The translations under genes were made by a program, and so were the position numbers. Below are positions 52,777 to 63,153 of a DNA stretch of 64,000 nt, piece by piece. The first letter of the stretch is position 1, and each line of letters starts with the position of its first letter. The stretch spans positions 62,001 to 126,000 of the forward strand of contig JAEUSB010000059.1 of assembly GCA_016788865.1 (NCBI GenBank), given 5' to 3'. Source of the DNA: Leptospirales bacterium (GTDB lineage Bacteria; Spirochaetota; Leptospiria; Leptospirales; Leptonemataceae). The notes under the pieces are model-generated. The model searched no databases, was not told where the DNA came from, and saw only the letters and a list, made by a program, of their open reading frames with translations.

Positions 52777-55233
52777 ATGGCTGAGTTCGAGGCTCTTGTC
52801 GAAATCCTCAAACGCTTCCCGGAGGCCGTTGATGAAGGCCTGCTGGCTCCGGCTCTGACAGAGGAAGAAGTGCAGTCTTTTGAAAGTCGCGGATGGCGGC
52901 TGCCGCATGTTCTGCGGGCATTTTATCTAATGCATAACGGTATGGGCAGTGAAGCTTTGCGCGGCTCGCCTCACAATGAAATCACCCCGATCCAGTCTCT
53001 GGGTGAAGTTTCCGGGGCACTCTGGAATACGTTGCATAATCACGCAGAGGAAATCAAGGACGAGAGGAAACTGAAAAAGAGCGAGCTGGCTCTGAGCGAA
53101 CCGGAACCGGAGAATTCTCTTTTTGCAATTGGCATGGATGCATCGGGGGATGTATACTTTCTGGATCTGAGAAAACGAAGCGCGCAGGGGCTGCCTGTAT
53201 TTCGGCTGCATCACGACGCGGCCTTTGAGGTAGACGATGTTGCTGATTCTATAGAAGAATTCATTTTCGAATTCCTCTCGCGAGAACTGGGATCGCCCGC
53301 AGAGCGCCCCAGGATGCCGCATCTAAAGCGCTCTCCAAAGACGCCAGCGGAACTCGTTGAAGAAGCCCTCGCCCCTGCAAGAGAAGCAAAGGCATCTTCT
53401 ACTGAATCATATCCGCAATTTCCCATTCTCTCGGAAATCGGCAGCACAGCCTGGATCAGTGGCGGTTATGCTGAGGGCGAGGGCGCAGGAGTGCACTCCG
53501 GCTTTTTCACACCGCAAGGTGACATCGTTACTCTTGGAAGGGACGGGCGAGTTTTCGAGTGGAATATGGAAGACGGGAGCGTGACGAGATTTCTGGAAAA
53601 TCCAGAAACCGAACCGACCGTCATCCTGCTTTCTCCCAATGGCAAGACCATGGCCCTCTACGGGACTCATAGTTATGACAGTGACGAGGGATTCATCGCG
53701 CTGTTTGATTTTGCGGAGTTCAAGGAGATCTGCAGATTCGAGGTGGAAGCAGCGGCGGAGATTCAATTTACGCCCGATAGCCTTGAAATCGCGATCCTCA
53801 CGCAGAAGGCCGTGGTCATCTTCGAATGCAAGAACGGAAATCAGACGACGCAGATTTCACTGAAGAAAGAGGCGCCTAAACATTTTGCTATCTCCGCCGA
53901 TGGCCTGATCGCCACGCATGTCGATGAGTTCTTCCCTGTGATCATCAGGGACCGTTCGGGAAAGAAGATTCACGAGATTGCTGCGCCGGAAGAAGGCGCG
54001 CAAGTACAAAGGCTTATATTCCGGCGCGACGGGAGACTCTGTATCGCTTCAACCAAACTCCACTCTTTCAATCCCGTAAACAAAGAACTTTCCTCTCATC
54101 CTCTGCCTTTTGAAAAATACGAAACAACCTGGAGCGACGGGGAAGTAATGTCTCTTGTTGAATTCCGGTATGAGAAATACTCCTGTACGGGATACAACGC
54201 AGCAATTGTTGACCTGACGTCCGGACAAATCCTTGGTTCTTTCACCTCAGATTACAGTTGGCGCGATGCAATCGTGCATGTATCGCCTGCGCGCAATCAG
54301 GCAGCCGTAATTACGTTGCGAAATCCGCACGTCGAACTTCGCAGCCTCCCGGACGGAAACATTACAAATCCATACAATGGGATTATTTCCGACGCGAATC
54401 TCGGCGCCGTCACATCCCAGGGATATTTAATGCTTTCCGGGCTTACGATTTCTTTCCTGAGTCAAACAGGCAGCGTCATCTCTACGTTGAAAGATGAAAA
54501 GCATAAGTTCGAACTCGCGGCAGTTAGTCCCGACGGCGCAATTGCAATGGTCACGTGCGAAAACAAAGCCGGGCGTGTTGTATCCCTTCCTGATCTTAAA
54601 GTTTTACAAGAATTCAAGCTACCGTCCAATGCAAAGGTTCTTCAATTCGGCAGATCCGGCACTATTGTTCTATTCGGCTGCGACAATGCAGAACTCCTAT
54701 TATACAATCTGGAAAAGAAAAAATCCACGCGGATGCCGGAAATGCTGTCGGCGTACATGTCCGGAGTCGCTCTATCTCCGGATGAAAAACTCGGACTTGC
54801 GGCTGATGGCATGGGAGCGGTTCTCTTTGACGTCGAGAAAAGATCAATGATCACGAAGAAGATTTCTCAGGGAGAGTTCACGTGGGTGGTCGATTTCTCA
54901 CCCGATGGGAGCCGGTTCCTTGTCGCCGGGCGGGATGTATCTCTTCGAGTCTTTTCCATCGACGGCAAAGAGATGTTGCGTATTGCGGAAGTGGATACTG
55001 ACAGAGCCTGGATTCTTCCGGATAACCGGTTTCTAATTTATCAAATGAACGGAGAACTCCATCTTCGCGATCAAAAGGGAACAATTGTCGCGGGCTTCAA
55101 TCTAGAGGGCAGTCAGGACACAATCCTGGGCACGGCGCTAAATGCTGAGAGGACCGAAATTTGTGTAAAGTCCATCCGCGGAAAACTGTTTCGATGCTCG
55201 ATCCCTCCGGCCTCCTCAATGCAGCAAATCTGA
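52777..55233 (+). CDS. SUKH (SMI1/KNR4)-domain protein fused to WD40-like propellers
   Basis: 818 residues, apparently cytoplasmic (no signal). The first 170 residues have the SUKH pattern: ALTEEEVQSFESRGWRLPHV, LRAFYLMHNGMGS, FAIGMDASGDVYFLDLRKRS and a final acidic helix DDVADSIEEFIFEFLSRELG. After a short linker come about 600 residues of WD40-like blades: EGAGVHSGFFTPQGDIVTLG then RDGRVFEWNMEDGSV, LLSPNGKTMALYG, AISADGLIATH, AVSPDGAIAMVTC, ALSPDEKLGLAADG and DFSPDGSRFLVAGRD then SLRVFSIDG. Many SUKH proteins are immunity proteins against polymorphic toxins, but others are housekeeping scaffolds; no toxin gene is adjacent. AAGGA lies five bases before the ATG. Confidence 0.82.
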   Translation: MAEFEALVEILKRFPEAVDEGLLAPALTEEEVQSFESRGWRLPHVLRAFYLMHNGMGSEALRGSPHNEITPIQSLGEVSGALWNTLHNHAEEIKDERKLKKSELALSEPEPENSLFAIGMDASGDVYFLDLRKRSAQGLPVFRLHHDAAFEVDDVADSIEEFIFEFLSRELGSPAERPRMPHLKRSPKTPAELVEEALAPAREAKASSTESYPQFPILSEIGSTAWISGGYAEGEGAGVHSGFFTPQGDIVTLGRDGRVFEWNMEDGSVTRFLENPETEPTVILLSPNGKTMALYGTHSYDSDEGFIALFDFAEFKEICRFEVEAAAEIQFTPDSLEIAILTQKAVVIFECKNGNQTTQISLKKEAPKHFAISADGLIATHVDEFFPVIIRDRSGKKIHEIAAPEEGAQVQRLIFRRDGRLCIASTKLHSFNPVNKELSSHPLPFEKYETTWSDGEVMSLVEFRYEKYSCTGYNAAIVDLTSGQILGSFTSDYSWRDAIVHVSPARNQAAVITLRNPHVELRSLPDGNITNPYNGIISDANLGAVTSQGYLMLSGLTISFLSQTGSVISTLKDEKHKFELAAVSPDGAIAMVTCENKAGRVVSLPDLKVLQEFKLPSNAKVLQFGRSGTIVLFGCDNAELLLYNLEKKKSTRMPEMLSAYMSGVALSPDEKLGLAADGMGAVLFDVEKRSMITKKISQGEFTWVVDFSPDGSRFLVAGRDVSLRVFSIDGKEMLRIAEVDTDRAWILPDNRFLIYQMNGELHLRDQKGTIVAGFNLEGSQDTILGTALNAERTEICVKSIRGKLFRCSIPPASSMQQI

Positions 55234-55284
55234 ATCCCGGAATCTGAAATTGATGCGTCTATGAAACTGATGGCTAAAATGCGA

Positions 55285-56877
55285 TCAAGGGCGATATTTG
55301 GATGGAGCCACCCCGCGTAGTTTCTTGAAGCCAACGTTGAATGCAGTCTTTGAATTAAAGCCGGATTCAAAGGCTATTTCAATCAGAGTCTTATCAGGAT
55401 GGGCCTTCATCAGTCGCTCTGCCTCGCCCACTCGATAGTGCAAAAGCAACTGCGGAAAACTGAGCCCCAGGCGCGAGTTCAGCAATTCCGAGAATTCGTG
55501 CGTGGATATTCCGAGTCGCCCGGCTAGAGCGGCTAACGTCAATCCTTCTTCACTAAAGATCTTCTCTTCCTCCATGATCTGGTTCAAGCGGAGCAAAATC
55601 GCATCCACATCAATTCCGGAGAGTCGGCTGCGCGCATAACGGGTTCCCGCATGCCGGAAAGACTCCATGCGAGCAAGGATTTCTGCGTTTTGTCGGGTCA
55701 GCGATTCTTTCTCAAGAAGAATTGTCCGATAGCGTTGAAACAAACCGCCGGCGAACAGCATGGCTTCAAGCGGTAATATCAATGCGGGGCCAAAGGCAGT
55801 CAGTACGCCGTACGGGAGAAACCCCAGCAGATAGAGAATGTGAGGCACCGCAGCCAGATAGAAAATAGTCCATCCGGCAGCAAAGAGCCACAGAGACTTC
55901 TGACCGTGACGAAATACCAGGACGAAAATCACAAACAGGAAAGCCAGAATAGAAACAACATAGAGGAAGATGTACGTTCGCGCGAGCAGGTAGCGCGGTG
56001 CGGAGGTCAGTGCAAGGGGAATCAGTATCAATGCCAGGTACTGCAGGCCGACGGCTATTCGGTCAGCCTGCGGCATGAATTCTCGAAGCCGAGTGAACTT
56101 CCGAAAAAAAAGCAGGGAGCAAAGATACGTGCAGCCCAATGTAAACAGAACAATGTGCTCTGCAACCCAGGGCCAGTCCGGATACAGTAGCCGAAAGGCG
56201 TTGCCGTAGTTAGCGTTGCGATTCAGCCAGAGAAAGAATAAATACAATCCATAGTATGCGTAAACGCGTTCGCGCAAGCCAAGCGCAAACAGGAATGATA
56301 GCGCAACAATCGGCAACAGTATTCCCGCGTAGGCGAATTCAAACGCAGATTCAAGCTCGACGCGGCGCTCAAATTCTTCTCTGGTTAAGACTGAAATGGG
56401 AAAGCCGAGTCGAACTCCCCCTGAATACAAACGCAAATACCAGGTACCACCCTGCCCGGTCTCAATTGGAAAGGCCGGATAGTCACCTATTTGCACGGGC
56501 CAGGTCGAACGAACGCGTCGAATTCCCGTTTGCATGCGCCGCGTTTCACCGCCGGTAGGAACCGAGAACATATCCACTTCCCAGAGCACTTTCCATTCGA
56601 GTACAACCAGGAAGGGTCGGATTCCAATTGGATCCCGCAGGCGAAACCAGTAAGTCTTACCCGAAAAACTGCGATCCATGCCCCGGGGAGCACAGGGCTT
56701 CCAATCGGTTGCAGCCTGCACTTCTGCCAGTTCGTCGGCTGCCCCCGGGTCATCGCGCACAAGGCAATCTACTCGTTTGAAACCCTCGGCGAGGCTACGG
56801 GATTCCTGACAGGACACAAAGATTACAAGGAACAGGATGGGCAGAAAAACACGGACGTTAGGCGAGCCCGGATGCAT
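55285..56877 (-). CDS. 7TMR-DISM membrane receptor fused to an AraC-type DNA-binding domain
   Basis: About 530 residues. A signal-like N-terminus (VFLPILFLVIFVSC) is followed by an extracytoplasmic 7TMR-DISMED2-like jelly-roll domain (TYWFRLRDPIGIRPFLVVLE, PAFPIETGQGGTWYLRLYSG). Seven membrane helices follow at about 195-395 (FAYAGILLPIVALSFLFALG through LLPLEAMLFAGG), then a short coiled segment. The C-terminus is an AraC/XylS-type domain: LTLAALAGRLGISTHEFSEL, FPQLLLHYRVGEAERLMKAH and LIEIAFESGFNSKTAFNVGF. It should be a one-component receptor that binds DNA from the membrane. The ATG at 56877 is chosen; a TTG at 56919 is in frame. Divergent from the repeat lipoprotein at 56987. Confidence 0.85.
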   Translation of the reverse strand: MHPGSPNVRVFLPILFLVIFVSCQESRSLAEGFKRVDCLVRDDPGAADELAEVQAATDWKPCAPRGMDRSFSGKTYWFRLRDPIGIRPFLVVLEWKVLWEVDMFSVPTGGETRRMQTGIRRVRSTWPVQIGDYPAFPIETGQGGTWYLRLYSGGVRLGFPISVLTREEFERRVELESAFEFAYAGILLPIVALSFLFALGLRERVYAYYGLYLFFLWLNRNANYGNAFRLLYPDWPWVAEHIVLFTLGCTYLCSLLFFRKFTRLREFMPQADRIAVGLQYLALILIPLALTSAPRYLLARTYIFLYVVSILAFLFVIFVLVFRHGQKSLWLFAAGWTIFYLAAVPHILYLLGFLPYGVLTAFGPALILPLEAMLFAGGLFQRYRTILLEKESLTRQNAEILARMESFRHAGTRYARSRLSGIDVDAILLRLNQIMEEEKIFSEEGLTLAALAGRLGISTHEFSELLNSRLGLSFPQLLLHYRVGEAERLMKAHPDKTLIEIAFESGFNSKTAFNVGFKKLRGVAPSKYRP

Positions 56878-56930
56878 CCAGGCAATCGGCGCAGGGGTTG
56901 CACTTTTTTCAATCCACAACCGATTTTTTT

Positions 56931-56957
56931 TGTTCGCTGTTATAACCCGGTGCGACG
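56931..56957 (+). promoter_or_regulatory. 27-bp box upstream of repeat lipoprotein 1 (shared with 60954-60980)
   Basis: The box begins TGTTCGCTG, has TATAAC at 56941-56946 and ends GCGACG. It matches 26 of 27 bases with a box in the same orientation upstream of the second repeat lipoprotein; the sole difference is T/G at 56951. TATAAC may serve as a -10 element. The flanks are unrelated. Confidence 0.7.
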
Positions 56958-56986
56958 GCCCGATTCAGGTACGTTAGAATTCGTTT

Positions 56987-58633
56987 ATGCTTCCGAGGAC
57001 AAAGCCCGGGACCACCCGGAGTCGCGGGATCACAGGACGATTCAAGCTGGCCCTGTGTTGTTCCGTACTGCTGTTCTATCCCGCCTGCTCGCGAATCAAT
57101 GTCGATTGCGCTACCGGAGATCCCTCCTGTAGTCCCTTTGCATGGCTGCTAAGTTTATCCGGTCGTAATCTGAATCCGCGACCCTGTGCTGGAATTGGTC
57201 TTGATCTCGCGTCTTTTCATTCGTATGTTTCCAGCGGGCTCAACTTGCAGGGCGCGAATGTCTGTGCCCTGAAAGAGGGTGGCATGGTTGCACTTGGTAG
57301 GACTCCAACGGGCACAACGCTTCAGGGCAAGGCGCCACTCATCGCACACAGCGGCGCAACCAGCGACACGATGGTCGTGAAATGGGATTCCTCGGGTAAC
57401 CTCATCTGGTTCACCTACCTTGGAACCGGGGTTTCAGACCTGGAGTTCGAGAAGTTGGCAGAAACAAGCGACGGCGGCTTGGTCCTGCTCGGCGGTATGA
57501 GCGGTCCGGATAATTTTGTGATTGGTGGCGTCAGTCCCATTCTCCCGGCCACGTCAGGCGACGATTCGGACATATACCTCCTGCGGCTACGCGCCGATGG
57601 AAGCGTGGCCTGGCATACGGCGCTCAGTGGCTCAGGTTCCGGAGACGAATCTGACAATGGCGGGGTTGTTGTTGCAGATGACGGCACCATTTACATTTCA
57701 GGAACAGCGGGCCAAAATGCTCTAAACACGATTGGTGGCGTCACTGCGACCGTTCCGAATCCAGGGGACGGCAGCGATATCGTTTTTGCAAAGTTTTCTG
57801 ACGCAGGAACGCTGCTTTCTTTTCGCTATATAGGCGGAGGTGGATCGGGATTAATAAGTTATTACGGGCTGAGCCTGGTAAAAACAAGCGACGGTAACTT
57901 TGTCATTGGTGGCGATGCGTATGGTCCCCCCGCGAACACCATTGACGGCAAGACGGCCATCCTGCCTTACACCGCAGGAGATGATCGTGAGAACATGGCG
58001 GTTAAGGTCGATCCCAACGGAAATCTATTGTGGTTCACGTATCTGGGTGGCGGCGGGGCCTCAAATATCTACAATCACTCCGCCATTTCGAGCTTGAGCG
58101 ATGGATCCGTCGTTCTGGGCGCCTATACGTCGACAGGTGTAAACACAATCGGAGGGATTGGGGCGCTCCTCCCGCGCTCAAACAGCGATGCGCTTGTCTT
58201 CAAGCTGAGTCCCTCAGGACAGTTGCAGTGGTTTACGTACGTGGGCGGTCCAGGCTCATACTACAACCTGTATGACGTACGCGAGGCCGCGGATGGGGGC
58301 ATACTCTTCGGAGGCACAGCGCAAAACGGAGCGGCAACTATTGGTGGTGTAAATGAAAGAGCACCCTGCGGCGCTGTTGCCAATTGCGCATTCCTGGGCA
58401 GGCTGGGTACTTCTGGCGGCGTTGAGTGGTTCACGCATGCCGCAAGCGGCGGCGGCACTTCGTATTATTCGTTAAGTGCGATAAATGCAACAGCAGAAGG
58501 GGGAGTGATCGGAATCGGCTACGCGCAGGACGCCGGTGCAACCATACAAGGAAAGTCGCCGCTCAATCCATTCCAGGTAGGGGATTCATACGATCTGTTC
58601 TTAGTGAAGATTGATCCGCAGGGGAATCTGTGA
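56987..58633 (+). CDS. Repeat lipoprotein 1 (SBBP-like propeller)
   Basis: 548 residues. A long signal peptide ends in LLFYPAC, a lipobox-like site, followed by the Cys-containing start INVDCATGDPSCSPFAWLL. After that, blades of about 65 residues repeat with endings such as NLIWFTYLGTG, NLLWFTYLGGGG, QLQWFTYVGGPG and VEWFTHAASGGG, and with GGVSPILP-like turns. The pattern is that of the SBBP-like surface lipoproteins found in Leptospirales. The function is unknown. The start has no strong ribosome site. It shares its N-terminal motif, repeat type and a 27-bp upstream box with the lipoprotein at 59501-60940, though the blade sequences are diverged. Confidence 0.8.
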   Translation: MLPRTKPGTTRSRGITGRFKLALCCSVLLFYPACSRINVDCATGDPSCSPFAWLLSLSGRNLNPRPCAGIGLDLASFHSYVSSGLNLQGANVCALKEGGMVALGRTPTGTTLQGKAPLIAHSGATSDTMVVKWDSSGNLIWFTYLGTGVSDLEFEKLAETSDGGLVLLGGMSGPDNFVIGGVSPILPATSGDDSDIYLLRLRADGSVAWHTALSGSGSGDESDNGGVVVADDGTIYISGTAGQNALNTIGGVTATVPNPGDGSDIVFAKFSDAGTLLSFRYIGGGGSGLISYYGLSLVKTSDGNFVIGGDAYGPPANTIDGKTAILPYTAGDDRENMAVKVDPNGNLLWFTYLGGGGASNIYNHSAISSLSDGSVVLGAYTSTGVNTIGGIGALLPRSNSDALVFKLSPSGQLQWFTYVGGPGSYYNLYDVREAADGGILFGGTAQNGAATIGGVNERAPCGAVANCAFLGRLGTSGGVEWFTHAASGGGTSYYSLSAINATAEGGVIGIGYAQDAGATIQGKSPLNPFQVGDSYDLFLVKIDPQGNL

Positions 58634-58678
58634 TCTTCCGCCGAGGTGAGGACTTCGGTGTGTCTGCTGAGCACGAGG

Positions 58679-59323
58679 CTATTTTGCGCGATGACGAAAG
58701 AGTTGCGCCAGTGCAATAAAGCAAGCTGGCACGGTGACGGCCCAGGGTAACCCAAACATCAACACGCTGGGAGAAAATACGGGATAAAAGTACGCAACGG
58801 CAAACAGTGGAGTTATGCAACCGTTGAAAAGAAAGATACGGCGCACCCACTTTTCCACGCCGCTGCGTTCAAAGGCAAAGCTCGCAAAGATTGTTGCCAG
58901 GTTTAAGAAAATGTAACCCAATGCATCGACGTCCCAGAACAAAGAGTGAGGGGTTTGATTGAGCAAGCTCAACGGACCGCGCGTACCTTCCAGATTATCA
59001 AAAGTCCAGATGTAGCCTGCGGGCAGTACGGTGGCCATTTGCACTACGTAATTGAGCGCGCACAGAGTTACATAGATGATTGCAAGGGATACCGCAGCGT
59101 GAGTCCAGAATTGTTTTTCGACGGGTGTCGTGTGGTGGAGGGCCAACATGGAAATCAAAAACGGAACGGTTATGATCAAGGAAAACGCGTAAGCAATGTA
59201 AGCATTGCTGAGTGGAGTTACCCACTCGAGTATTTGCAGAGGCACCGTTGCAACATAGCCGACCGCCCCGACCAGTGCGATAACCGAAGCCCAGAATCCA
59301 ATTCTAGCAATAGATCGCTGCAC
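58679..59323 (-). CDS. Hypothetical multi-pass membrane protein
   Basis: 214 residues with six predicted membrane segments (FWASVIALVGAVGYVATVPL, AYAFSLIITVPFLISMLALH, and later LFWDVDALGYIFLNLATIFA and LMFGLPWAVTVPACFIALAQ). I recognise no characterised family; the DALGY and NLEG loop positions resemble DUF4386-type proteins only loosely. The GTG start at 59323 has GGGAG seven bases upstream, a good ribosome site. It lies between the two repeat lipoproteins and on the same strand as the second. There are about 177 bp upstream, so it probably has its own promoter. Confidence 0.65.
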   Translation of the reverse strand: MQRSIARIGFWASVIALVGAVGYVATVPLQILEWVTPLSNAYIAYAFSLIITVPFLISMLALHHTTPVEKQFWTHAAVSLAIIYVTLCALNYVVQMATVLPAGYIWTFDNLEGTRGPLSLLNQTPHSLFWDVDALGYIFLNLATIFASFAFERSGVEKWVRRIFLFNGCITPLFAVAYFYPVFSPSVLMFGLPWAVTVPACFIALAQLFRHRAK

Positions 59324-59500
59324 TTTACATCTCCCGGGTCATCGCGCTGGGAAGCAGAGCTAGACCAATGTGACAGGGACCTCCATTCCGTGGGTGTAAA
59401 CAAAATCCAGAAATTCGCGCCTATGACTTTAGTCTGGTTCGCGTTGGTTGATCCGCGTCGTTGCATTCCTCTTCGATCCGTGCCTTCAAAACAACGCAGC

Positions 59501-60940
59501 TCAGCGAAATTGATTCACGAATAGATCTTTGGTGCCTGTACGAATCTCCCCGCCCAGATCTCCCTCAGTGTAGCCCACGTTATACAATGTACCATCGGAC
59601 GTGATTTCCGTTCCAAAGCCCTCTGCTTTGACGGCGGGCGCTCCCAGGAGTCGAGTCCACTGACGAGTTCCATTTCCATTGTATTTGGTGACGTGCATGT
59701 CCCAGGTCCCGGTCTTTGTTTGCAGACCGAGGTTGCCGGCGGTTCCGCCGGTCACATATAGATTACCCAGAACATCGGCCGTAACTCCAAATCCCCAGCT
59801 GTCTACCGGGGCTGCGCCGAGTAACCGTGTCCAGACCCGGTTTCCGTTCGCGGTGTACCTGGTCAGAAAGACGTCTCGGATTCCAGTTAGAGCCTGACCG
59901 TCAAGACTCCCGTCGGTATAGCCAGTTACATAGACATTGCCTGCATCTGTTGTCACGGCACGTGCAACAGTCGGTACACCCGCTGCTCCCATCAGGCGCG
60001 TCCACATTCTTGAACCATTCAAATCATATCGAGCCAGGAACATATCCTGTGTGCCGGTAAGACTCTGACCGTCCAGAGCACCGGTCGTTTGACCGGCAAC
60101 GAACAGATTCCCCGTCGCATCGATAGCAATGGAATATGAAAACGTTTGTGCTGCAGCAACCCCCAGGAGGCGAGTCCACTGTCTGGTTCCATTGGTATCG
60201 TACTTTACGATATATTGATCTCTTGTGCCCGTGCGGACCTGGCCGTCCAGGTTGCCGTCTGTGTATCCGGTGATGTAGGCGTTGCCTGCCTGATCCAATG
60301 TGAGTCCAAACCCTTCTGTTGCGACAGCAGCAACTCCAAGCAAGCGCGTCCATTGTCGGTTGCCCCCTGGGTCATATTTGATCAGGTGCACGTCATACGG
60401 CGTTCCGGTTTTAACCTGGCCATCGAGATTACCTGAGGTCCCACCGGTCAGGAAAATGTTGCCGGAACCATCCACCCGGATCCCGAATCCCCAGCTATCA
60501 ACCGCGGCCACGCCCAGCAAGCGCGTCCAAATTAATCTGCCGCTGCGATCGTACTTTGTTAGAAAAAGATCCCGAATCCCGGTTAGAGTCTGACCAGCAA
60601 GATTCCCATCGGTAAAGCCAGTGACATAGACATTGCCTCCGCTGTCGGTTGTTACTGCGTGTGCCTCCGTTACTACACCCGCTACACCAAGCAAGCGGGT
60701 CCATTGTAGTTTTCCCGCGTTATCATGGGGAGAAAGAGAAGCGAATAGCACTGCAGAAGCTGCGGCATTGCACGATGGATCGACGCTGATACAATCGCTG
60801 TTGACTTTGCAATACACAAGACAGAGCGCGAGCATGCACAGGACCGTGCGCCTTCCCGGAACTGGACGGCATGTTTTGGCCCCTGAGGGATTCAGATTTG
60901 CTCCTCCAATTGCCGCCATAGCAATTTTGTATTTTACCAT
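59501..60940 (-). CDS. Repeat lipoprotein 2 (SBBP repeats)
   Basis: About 479 residues. The signal peptide ends LCMLALCLVYC (lipobox), then the motif VNSDCISVDPSCNAAASAVL as in repeat lipoprotein 1. Seven blades of about 57 residues follow, each with the SBBP pattern: QWTRLLGVA, then AVTTDSGGNVYVTGFTDGNL then DLFLTKYDRSG, and so on. The last blade is slightly degenerate (GTLYNVGYTEGD). It is probably surface-exposed or periplasmic and of unknown ligand. Starts at 60940 (ATG, MVKYKIA) or 60919 are possible; the open frame extends to 61003 through the promoter box, so the upstream start is rejected. Confidence 0.85.
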   Translation of the reverse strand: MVKYKIAMAAIGGANLNPSGAKTCRPVPGRRTVLCMLALCLVYCKVNSDCISVDPSCNAAASAVLFASLSPHDNAGKLQWTRLLGVAGVVTEAHAVTTDSGGNVYVTGFTDGNLAGQTLTGIRDLFLTKYDRSGRLIWTRLLGVAAVDSWGFGIRVDGSGNIFLTGGTSGNLDGQVKTGTPYDVHLIKYDPGGNRQWTRLLGVAAVATEGFGLTLDQAGNAYITGYTDGNLDGQVRTGTRDQYIVKYDTNGTRQWTRLLGVAAAQTFSYSIAIDATGNLFVAGQTTGALDGQSLTGTQDMFLARYDLNGSRMWTRLMGAAGVPTVARAVTTDAGNVYVTGYTDGSLDGQALTGIRDVFLTRYTANGNRVWTRLLGAAPVDSWGFGVTADVLGNLYVTGGTAGNLGLQTKTGTWDMHVTKYNGNGTRQWTRLLGAPAVKAEGFGTEITSDGTLYNVGYTEGDLGGEIRTGTKDLFVNQFR

Positions 60941-60953
60941 ATAAAGAACCAAT

Positions 60954-60980
60954 CGTCGCCCCGGGTTATAACAGCGAACA
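60954..60980 (-). promoter_or_regulatory. 27-bp box upstream of repeat lipoprotein 2 (shared with 56931-56957)
   Basis: Read on the minus strand it runs TGTTCGCTG...TATAAC...GCGACG, identical to the box at 56931 except for one base. It ends 13 bp before the start at 60940 (or 34 bp before 60919). It may be a core promoter plus a regulator site shared by the two lipoprotein genes. Confidence 0.7.
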
Positions 60981-61037
60981 TCAAAGAACGATATCGCAGC
61001 CAATCCATCTCCCGGTTGGTTATGACTGGCAGCGCAA

Positions 61038-61053
61038 CCCCCTGTTCAGGGGG
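61038..61053. promoter_or_regulatory. GC-rich palindrome between lipoprotein 2 and the adenylate cyclase
   Basis: CCCCCTGTTCAGGGGG: seven-base arms around TT. It lies between divergent genes, about 57 bp before the cyclase ATG. Possible operator for one or both genes; no T-run, so a terminator is unlikely. Confidence 0.4.
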
Positions 61054-61110
61054 GAAGCCTGGACATGACAGGCTTGACATGAGAGAACTCTCCAAGCGCT
61101 TGAAAAGCCT

Positions 61111-63153
61111 ATGACGCGCGTTGTTTTAGTTCTGTTTTGGATGGGAATCGTCTCAACTGGATCCCTCCGGGCAGAGACGCTGGTTTTGCGTCCACAGATT
61201 GCGATGCACGCGGTTTCCCCTTACATGAGCATTCTAGAAGATGCCGGGGATCGATTGGACTGGAACACGATTCGATTGAAAGAGATGGAAGCAGGATTCA
61301 GGCCCAGCCCTGGTCTCAACCCCAACCTTGGTCTCACACACAGCACATTCTGGCTTAAAGTTACAATTCGCAACGAAGATCCACAACGTTCCGACTACTT
61401 CCTTGTTCTGGACTATCCTCTCATGGATCATCTGGATATACAGGTTCCTGATGGAAAGAGCTTCCAGGTAATACAGGGAGGGGATCAGTTGCCACGCCTT
61501 CAGCGCGGAGATTGGCAGCGCACACCACGCTTTCCCCTGCGCATTCGGAATGGCGAGACAGTAACAATTTATATGCGCGCGAAGACGGAGGGAGCAGTTC
61601 AGCTGCCGCTGTTCATCCGAACTCCAGAGGCGCTGGCTCAATGGGAACAGTGGAACATTGTTTGGGGGGGAACCCTTTTGGGGATTACCGCCGTGATGGT
61701 TATCTATAGCCTGCTCTATGGAATTGCTCTAAGAAGTCTGACCCAGCTGAGCTACTCCCTTTTCTTGCTGGGGCTCGGCGCGTTCGTCTTAACCCAGGCC
61801 GGGATGGGACTCATCCTATTCTGGGGCCCAGGCAACGTACTTACGAATCCGTCGCTTGTACTCGCGGGGGGCATCGCCTTGCTGGGCGCTGGCATTTTCT
61901 TCCCCGCATTCCTCAATGCGGGGAAAATCATGCCGCGGTTGAGATACCTGGTTCATTTTTGCATTCCGCTCGGCATGCTTCTAGTGGCGGCGGCATTTCT
62001 GCTTCCGTATCGCGTAGGCGCAGCCTTGCTCATTGTTTCAGCCAGTTATTGCGCCGCCTCCACGGTGTTCAACAACGTGATCGGTGTGTTGCGCGGGTAT
62101 CGCCTTGCAAAGCTGTGTTTGGTAGCATGGACACCCGGCGCACTGGGATTTGGTGTAACGATAGCAAAGTTTTCGGGTGCAATACCGGCTAACTGGTTTA
62201 CTGAAAACGCTGGAACCATTGGAATCATGATGGGGATGGTGCTGCAAGCCCTGGCCAACGCCGATAGAGTCGTCTTCTTGCAGAGAGAGCAACTCCGCAT
62301 TGTACAGGAACATAAAGATCAATTGGAAGTCAAAGTAACGGAGCGGACGGAGCAGCTGGCGGAGACTACTGCAATTGCCCAGGCAGCGCGCAAAGAGTCA
62401 GATGATCTCCTTGCGAAGATCCTGCCAGGAGAGGTTGCAGAAGAATTAAAACGGGCAGGAGCCGTCGAGTCGCTCTTGCATGACGAAGTCTCCGTACTCT
62501 TTACAGACTTTCAGGGATTCACTGCCTCGTCTGAGAGCATGCTGCCCGAGGAGCTTGTTTCCCAATTGGATGGTTTCTTCTCGCAGTTTGACGAGATCTG
62601 TTTGCGCAACGGGATGGAGAAACTCAAAACCATAGGGGACGCGTATATGTGTGCCTCGGGTATCCCAAAGTTGAGCTCCAGCCACGCAGTCGACGCCTGT
62701 CTGACAGGGTTGCAGTTTCGGGAGTTCATGTTACGAACTGCTACACTACGTGCAGAGGCGGGACTCGAGACCTGGAGAATTCGGATTGGGATTCATTCCG
62801 GCCCAGTAATCTCAGGCGTGATTGGAAACTATAAGTTCGCCTATGATATCTGGGGAGATACGGTGAATACGGCCAGCCGGATGGAATCATTTGGCGCCGT
62901 TGATGAGGTGAATATTTCCGAAACAACCTTCGCCCTGGTAAAGGATTTCTTTGAGTGCGAACCGCGGGGAAGTATCGAAGTGAAAGGCAAAGGTATGCAG
63001 ACCATGTACTTTTTGCGCCGGATCAAACCAGAATTTTCCCGTGACGAATTGGGTCTGGTGCCCAATGACCATCTTGTCTTCAGCGCACAGAAGCTTGAGC
63101 GAGAAGATTCGCAGACCGAGCTCCGGGGTCAGTTGCAAACATCGCTCAATTGA
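61111..63153 (+). CDS. 7TMR-DISM adenylate cyclase
   Basis: 680 residues. A signal peptide (VVLVLFWMGIVSTGSLRAE) is followed by an extracytoplasmic 7TMR-DISMED2 domain (THSTFWLKVTIRNEDPQRSD, YPLMDHLDIQVPDG). Seven membrane helices lie at about 185-395, then a coiled coil (REQLRIVQEHKDQLEVKVTE). The class III catalytic domain has the metal Asp residues in LFTDFQGFTA and KTIGDAYMCASG, the adenine-selecting Lys (EKLKTIG) and Asp (IWGDTVN), and the Asn/Arg in VNTASRMES. It should make cAMP in response to an external ligand. It is the second adenylate cyclase in the window; the other, at 23567, has a different membrane half. The ribosome site is weak. Confidence 0.93.
   Translation: MTRVVLVLFWMGIVSTGSLRAETLVLRPQIAMHAVSPYMSILEDAGDRLDWNTIRLKEMEAGFRPSPGLNPNLGLTHSTFWLKVTIRNEDPQRSDYFLVLDYPLMDHLDIQVPDGKSFQVIQGGDQLPRLQRGDWQRTPRFPLRIRNGETVTIYMRAKTEGAVQLPLFIRTPEALAQWEQWNIVWGGTLLGITAVMVIYSLLYGIALRSLTQLSYSLFLLGLGAFVLTQAGMGLILFWGPGNVLTNPSLVLAGGIALLGAGIFFPAFLNAGKIMPRLRYLVHFCIPLGMLLVAAAFLLPYRVGAALLIVSASYCAASTVFNNVIGVLRGYRLAKLCLVAWTPGALGFGVTIAKFSGAIPANWFTENAGTIGIMMGMVLQALANADRVVFLQREQLRIVQEHKDQLEVKVTERTEQLAETTAIAQAARKESDDLLAKILPGEVAEELKRAGAVESLLHDEVSVLFTDFQGFTASSESMLPEELVSQLDGFFSQFDEICLRNGMEKLKTIGDAYMCASGIPKLSSSHAVDACLTGLQFREFMLRTATLRAEAGLETWRIRIGIHSGPVISGVIGNYKFAYDIWGDTVNTASRMESFGAVDEVNISETTFALVKDFFECEPRGSIEVKGKGMQTMYFLRRIKPEFSRDELGLVPNDHLVFSAQKLEREDSQTELRGQLQTSLN

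Follow-up and report, generated by a model that had tools for sequence, protein, structure and literature searches.

The window, the whole 64-kb stretch of DNA that we analysed, contains two lipoprotein genes, B and D, each preceded by a copy of a 27-nt box, and a regulator gene, A, which is divergent from gene B and has its start codon 54 bp from the box. A preliminary description of this DNA had overlooked the regulator gene (55285-56877). It had reported two same-orientation boxes, identical at 26 of 27 positions amid unrelated flanks, and we reproduced both the coordinates and the identity. The features are given below, where the window's genome is G000, and G001 and G002 are two genomes of the same genus that also carry the box.

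55285..56877, minus strand: gene A, membrane AraC-type regulator (Pfam 7TMR-DISMED2, 7TMR-DISM_7TM and HTH_18)
56931..56957, plus strand: box of gene B, putative operator, TGTTCGCTGTTATAACCCGGTGCGACG, 26/27 identical to the gene D box
56952..56957, plus strand: putative -35 of gene B, GCGACG (GCGACA in congener), 17 nt before the -10
56975..56980, plus strand: putative -10 of gene B, TAGAAT (6/6 in G001)
56987..58633, plus strand: gene B, 548-aa lipoprotein, predicted beta-propeller (open reading frame; lipobox Cys and C-x3-DPSC motif; structural model)
59501..60919, minus strand: gene D, SBBP beta-propeller lipoprotein (PF06739, E 5.8e-51; lipobox-like Cys)
60931..60936, minus strand: putative -10 of gene D, TAAAAT (6/6 in G001, 5/6 in G002)
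60954..60959, minus strand: putative -35 of gene D, GCGACG, 17 nt before the -10
60954..60980, minus strand: box of gene D, putative operator, TGTTCGCTGTTATAACCCGGGGCGACG

The gene B box has a GT near its 5′ end, GTTATAAC at its centre and CGACG at its 3′ end, and differs from the gene D box by a single base, at box position 21. Both boxes are oriented alike relative to their genes, the flanking DNA is unrelated, and only about 4e-5 pairs this similar are expected by chance in 64 kb. As the B and D proteins are remote paralogues (22% identity across 357 amino acids by BLAST), the identity of the boxes is not a leftover of gene duplication. Pattern searches, the source of all genome-wide statements about the box, revealed no third copy within the window at up to 9 mismatches. 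The genome-wide search proposed in the preliminary description, carried out over all 4.88 Mb (109 contigs) at up to 3 mismatches, returned these two copies and no other. As each lies at a gene start, a dispersed repeat was rejected, and the earlier idea that a shared regulatory site defines a small lipoprotein regulon, here of two genes, is well supported by the two genomic copies at gene starts and by their retention in congeners. A 3-mismatch match in another genome (G021 C16:56931) falls within the coding region of a LuxR-type regulator and was treated as chance. No Rfam structured RNA was matched within 55000-62000. A box-score scan of other SBBP/propeller lipoprotein genes in the family gave no strong match, indicating that lipoprotein genes do not carry the box in general.

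The gene D product matches PF06739 (SBBP) in six stretches and belongs to the SBBP lipoproteins. The gene B product matched no Pfam family, SBBP included; its AlphaFold model is all-beta, with CylK as the best PDB match (Foldseek, E 2e-19), and on the basis of this model, Foldseek and the remote BLAST match to D it models as a beta-propeller. The two products share the N-terminal motif Cys-x3-Asp-Pro-Ser-Cys (CATGDPSC and CISVDPSC), preceded by a predicted lipobox cysteine a few residues away; this corrects the Cys-x-Asp-Pro-Ser-Cys start given before. Divergent from gene D lies a gene (61111-63153, plus strand) for a 7TMR-DISM receptor fused to an adenylate/guanylate cyclase, for which no match was found near D in G001 or G002.

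Pfam searches of the gene A product identified PF07696 (E 1.6e-08), PF07695 (E 1e-24) and HTH_18 (PF12833; E 3.8e-17). Its AlphaFold model (mean pLDDT 82) consists of an N-terminal helix, a beta-sandwich, seven helices of transmembrane length, the last of which is long, and a multi-helix, AraC-type DNA-binding domain at the C terminus. Profile and fold searches against the PDB retrieved the periplasmic sensor domain of RetS as well as the DNA-binding domains of AraT, YesN and AraC, with TMt values of 0.75-0.81 for the structural match of the DNA-binding domain. The protein has the C-terminal double-HTH DNA-binding domain of the AraC/XylS family together with the extracellular domain and 7TM module of 7TMR-DISM receptors. 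Just beyond gene A, an open reading frame at 52777-55230 (plus strand) encodes a protein with a SUKH/SMI1-KNR4 domain at the N terminus and WD40-like repeats at the C terminus.

Gene A adjoins gene B and its box, and is divergent from B, in both G000 and G001 (GenBank JAIOPQ010000111.1, a lake metagenome-assembled Spirochaetia genome), with identities of 84-86% for gene A and 64-66% for gene B. The other G001 copy of the box precedes the D orthologue (74-75% identical), which is located on a separate contig among other neighbours, and G002 carries one copy, before the start of its D orthologue. For gene B, 25 of 27 box positions and all of TAGAAT are kept in G001, compared with 6 of 17 spacer positions; the DNA upstream of this box is conserved too, as expected beside gene A. 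The gene D box retains 24-25 of 27 positions in G001 and G002 and is followed by TAAAAT or TAAAAA, with 9-11 of 17 positions kept in the spacer and 23-30 of 100 in the 100 nt upstream. At the end of a G002 contig (G002:C77; L010:19618-20000), the C-terminal HTH of A comes immediately after the box and the N-terminal part of D, arranged as in the window (D, then A, minus strand). This points to either a deletion spanning D-C-B-A or a collapsed assembly at the end of the contig.

The spacing downstream of the boxes is uniform: exactly 17 nt separate the box-terminal GCGACG from TAGAAT in B and from TAAAAT in D. The most economical reading is that the box ends in a -35 element (GCGACR), followed by N17 and TA[GA]AAT as the -10, and both genes have the sigma70 class II layout of a ~17-nt spacer and a putative operator abutting the -35. 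Alternatively, CGACR may belong to the operator and not form a -35. The start codon follows the -10 after 6 nt in B (ATG) and 11 nt in D (probable ATG), and from these short distances both mRNAs are probably leaderless or nearly so. Such transcripts are common in L. interrogans (PMC5243855).

Relatives of gene A in other families of this class of spirochaetes, probably the Leptospira/Leptonema/Turneriella group judging from genome sizes and gene content, have nearby sites of like anatomy, which comprise 27 nt, start with NG (usually NGTC), end in CGACA/G and are followed by 17 nt and TAnnnT; in most, the start codon lies 55-61 nt from the box start. Sites in G003 and G017 lie further from their start codons, so that the predicted leaderlessness is not universal. 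Sites were scored as 22 nt plus CGAC[AG] with at least 6 of 10 dyad pairs, a spacer of 16-18 nt and TAnnn[TA]. Regulator loci (27 sequences, 483 kb) contained 19 such sites, 12 with an ORF start within 30 nt, compared with 4 and 1 in the reversed-sequence control and 4 and 0 in 20 randomly chosen stretches of class genomes totalling 380 kb. A site was found near 14 of 22 related regulators, within ~200 bp for ten and within 1.6 kb for the other four; the remaining 8 of 22 had none under these criteria. The B and D boxes themselves are weakly palindromic, with 5 of 10 dyad pairs, and we place them in the class by their length, ends, centre and spacing and by the adjacent regulator. In the set of 28 sites that we collected, G2 and CGAC23-26 never vary, in part by selection; T predominates at position 3, and the middle differs from site to site. 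Sister regulators have near-identical operators, and similarity of the variable part correlated with similarity of the regulator HTH (Mantel r = 0.66, 0 of 5000 shuffles), a value that is inflated by shared ancestry of the whole loci.

To extend the search to whole genomes, we scored matches to the pattern G-N20-CGACR-N17-TAnnnT for dyad symmetry. Among 143 matches in four genomes, 6 had at least 7 of 10 dyad pairs (0.5 expected), as did 2 of 78 in four further genomes. All eight strong-dyad sites are on contigs with an HTH_18 regulator, seven of them within ~2 kb. Five correspond to loci already examined and three are new, each beside an HTH_18 gene (G000:C7:11106, G045:C250:1868 and G032:C1:168462). 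Among the weaker dyads, at least one (G045:C176) is inside a coding sequence. The B and D boxes, at 5 of 10 pairs, would be missed by this dyad criterion. The eighth strong-dyad site, G000:C58:41291, is one of three on its contig, ~14 kb from a gene A paralogue, and this contig probably holds a second system of the kind in the window's genome, built around another core. The three related operators of this contig (L144:9291, 11138 and 11177), two of them divergent, have a GATTATAATC-like core and stand before genes for a lipoprotein-like product and for two short exported proteins related to each other; the gene A paralogue closest to them lies near the contig end. A further subclass of sites has the core CTTGCAAG (L142:8971, L140:5201, L117:1500 on the minus and L119:1500 on the plus strand). 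Some of these precede lipoproteins with a C-[ST]-SWGQFW N terminus, several have an HTH_18 gene nearby, and one immediately follows a LuxR-type response regulator.

The genes downstream of the sites encode SBBP, NHL and lactonase-type beta-propeller lipoproteins and other putative repeat lipoproteins. A minority encode AMP-binding acyl-CoA ligase-like proteins (twice), a PfpI-like protein and membrane proteins, names that come from reading the sequences rather than from a family search. Beta-propeller lipoproteins are thus frequent but not the sole targets of the site class. In some of the regulators with such sites, a different TM module replaces 7TMR-DISM, so that the site class belongs to membrane-anchored HTH_18 regulators. 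Two families of the class (L099:8914 and L216:6463) each have a gene for an AMP-binding acyl-CoA ligase-like protein directly 3′ of an HTH_18 regulator and an operator of this type.

The computed features, that is, the boxes and their rarity, conservation, promoter spacing, regulator adjacency, co-variation and class-wide recurrence, are best explained by a model in which the gene A product, a membrane-anchored AraC-type regulator, would use the box as its operator and activate the lipoprotein genes B and D; we put the probability of this reading at roughly 0.75. The further parts of the model, which concern direct binding, activation, dimerisation, the position of the transcript start and the signal, are inferred from sequence. 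The gene A protein would sense an envelope signal via its RetS-like extracellular domain and 7TM module, and its cytoplasmic HTH_18 domain would bind the box, probably as a dimer. As the box abuts a weak -35 (GCGACR), the bound regulator may touch RNA polymerase and switch on a promoter whose TA[GA]AAT -10 lies 17 nt from the -35, and from which transcription would start at the start codon or within a few bases of it. The predicted regulon would comprise the neighbouring gene B and gene D, which is 4 kb away here and at an unlinked locus in one congener.

Several other explanations were weighed against this model. The same cis-site might be bound by another factor, such as an alternative sigma factor or a different regulator, with the adjacency of gene A being coincidental. 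Although the CGACR-N17-TAnnnT frame common to all sites could reflect a single sigma factor, the variable part of the site tracks the identity of the neighbouring regulator and the sites found genome-wide lie beside HTH_18 genes; as for a regulator other than A, the cyclase gene at 61111-63153 lacks a counterpart near D in both congeners, and we consider this explanation unlikely. That gene A represses B and D through the same operator is an improbable variant of the main model: operators beside a -35 also serve repression, but here the -35 resembles TTGACA poorly and has the operator abutting its upstream side. An operator that abuts the -35 from upstream is the usual arrangement of AraC-type class II activators.

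The preliminary description had placed the promoter at TATAAC within the box, and a shared core promoter using this hexamer as its -10, with no dedicated regulator, would account for TGTTATAAC, which resembles an extended -10 and does not differ between the two boxes. A bare -10, however, leaves 27 conserved bases unexplained, and it is a second element, TA[GA]AAT, that is kept at a fixed 17 nt 3′ of the box while its surroundings change. In sister sites TATAAC is swapped for TGATCA, ATATAT or TTGCAA while CGACR-N17-TAnnnT stays. Based on this conservation footprint and the replacement in sister operators, TATAAC was rejected as the -10; it is probably the core of the putative operator, and we regard a regulator-free core promoter as quite improbable. 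The least credible alternative is that a promoter cassette moved recently between B and D, whether by transfer, as had also been considered before, or by gene conversion. The 26/27 identity amid otherwise unrelated upstream regions would fit such an event, but the exchanged block would need to be just 27 bp, and box position 21 is inherited gene by gene, being T in the B boxes of both species and G in the D boxes of all three, which indicates that the two boxes have been separate since before the species split.

Beyond this locus, we lean towards the view that the membrane HTH_18 regulators of the class share a modular promoter grammar, in which GT[C/T] and CGACR edges would enclose a regulator-specific, often palindromic core, usually followed after 17 nt by the -10 and directly thereafter by the start codon. 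If this is true, the regulon of each uncharacterised membrane regulator, including its lipoprotein targets, could be read from sequence alone. In Leptospira and its relatives both 7TMR-DISM receptors and surface lipoproteins form large families, but very few regulator binding sites have been mapped; a recognisable operator beside a membrane regulator would provide testable regulator-target pairs and a rule for finding others, and the pairing would connect envelope sensing with lipoprotein display. AraC-type regulators, 7TMR-DISM receptors, SBBP lipoproteins and leaderless mRNAs are each already known separately, and the literature that we searched contains no description of a dedicated operator for the membrane HTH_18 regulators of this class.

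Compared with AraC/XylS class II activators such as XylS, RhaS and MelR, gene A is alike in its AraC-type DNA-binding domain (PF12833), whose closest solved counterparts are those of AraT, YesN and AraC, and in a putative operator that abuts or overlaps the -35, but differs in being membrane-anchored by a 7TM receptor, and its targets are likely leaderless. It speaks against the model that members of the AraC family often recognise direct repeats and not dyads; the sites of class II activators are direct repeats, whereas those described here are 27-nt units with constant ends and an often palindromic centre. With the 7TMR-DISM receptors (RetS, LadS and the Leptospira expansion), gene A shares 7TMR-DISMED2 and 7TMR-DISM_7TM, but its output is a DNA-binding HTH_18 domain instead of a kinase or cyclase, making it sensor and transcription factor in one protein. 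In this direct tethering of a membrane sensor to a DNA-binding domain it resembles the one-component regulators ToxR and CadC, although gene A combines an AraC-type HTH with a polytopic 7TM module where these have a winged helix and a single TM segment, and we claim no sequence relation. The start codons of B and D, ~10 nt or less from the putative transcript start, are like those of leaderless L. interrogans promoters (PMC5243855). That TSS study calls promoter regions poorly characterised and reports no regulator-specific promoter motif except that of sigma-54 (PMC5243855); the operator-plus-promoter layout described here is absent from it.
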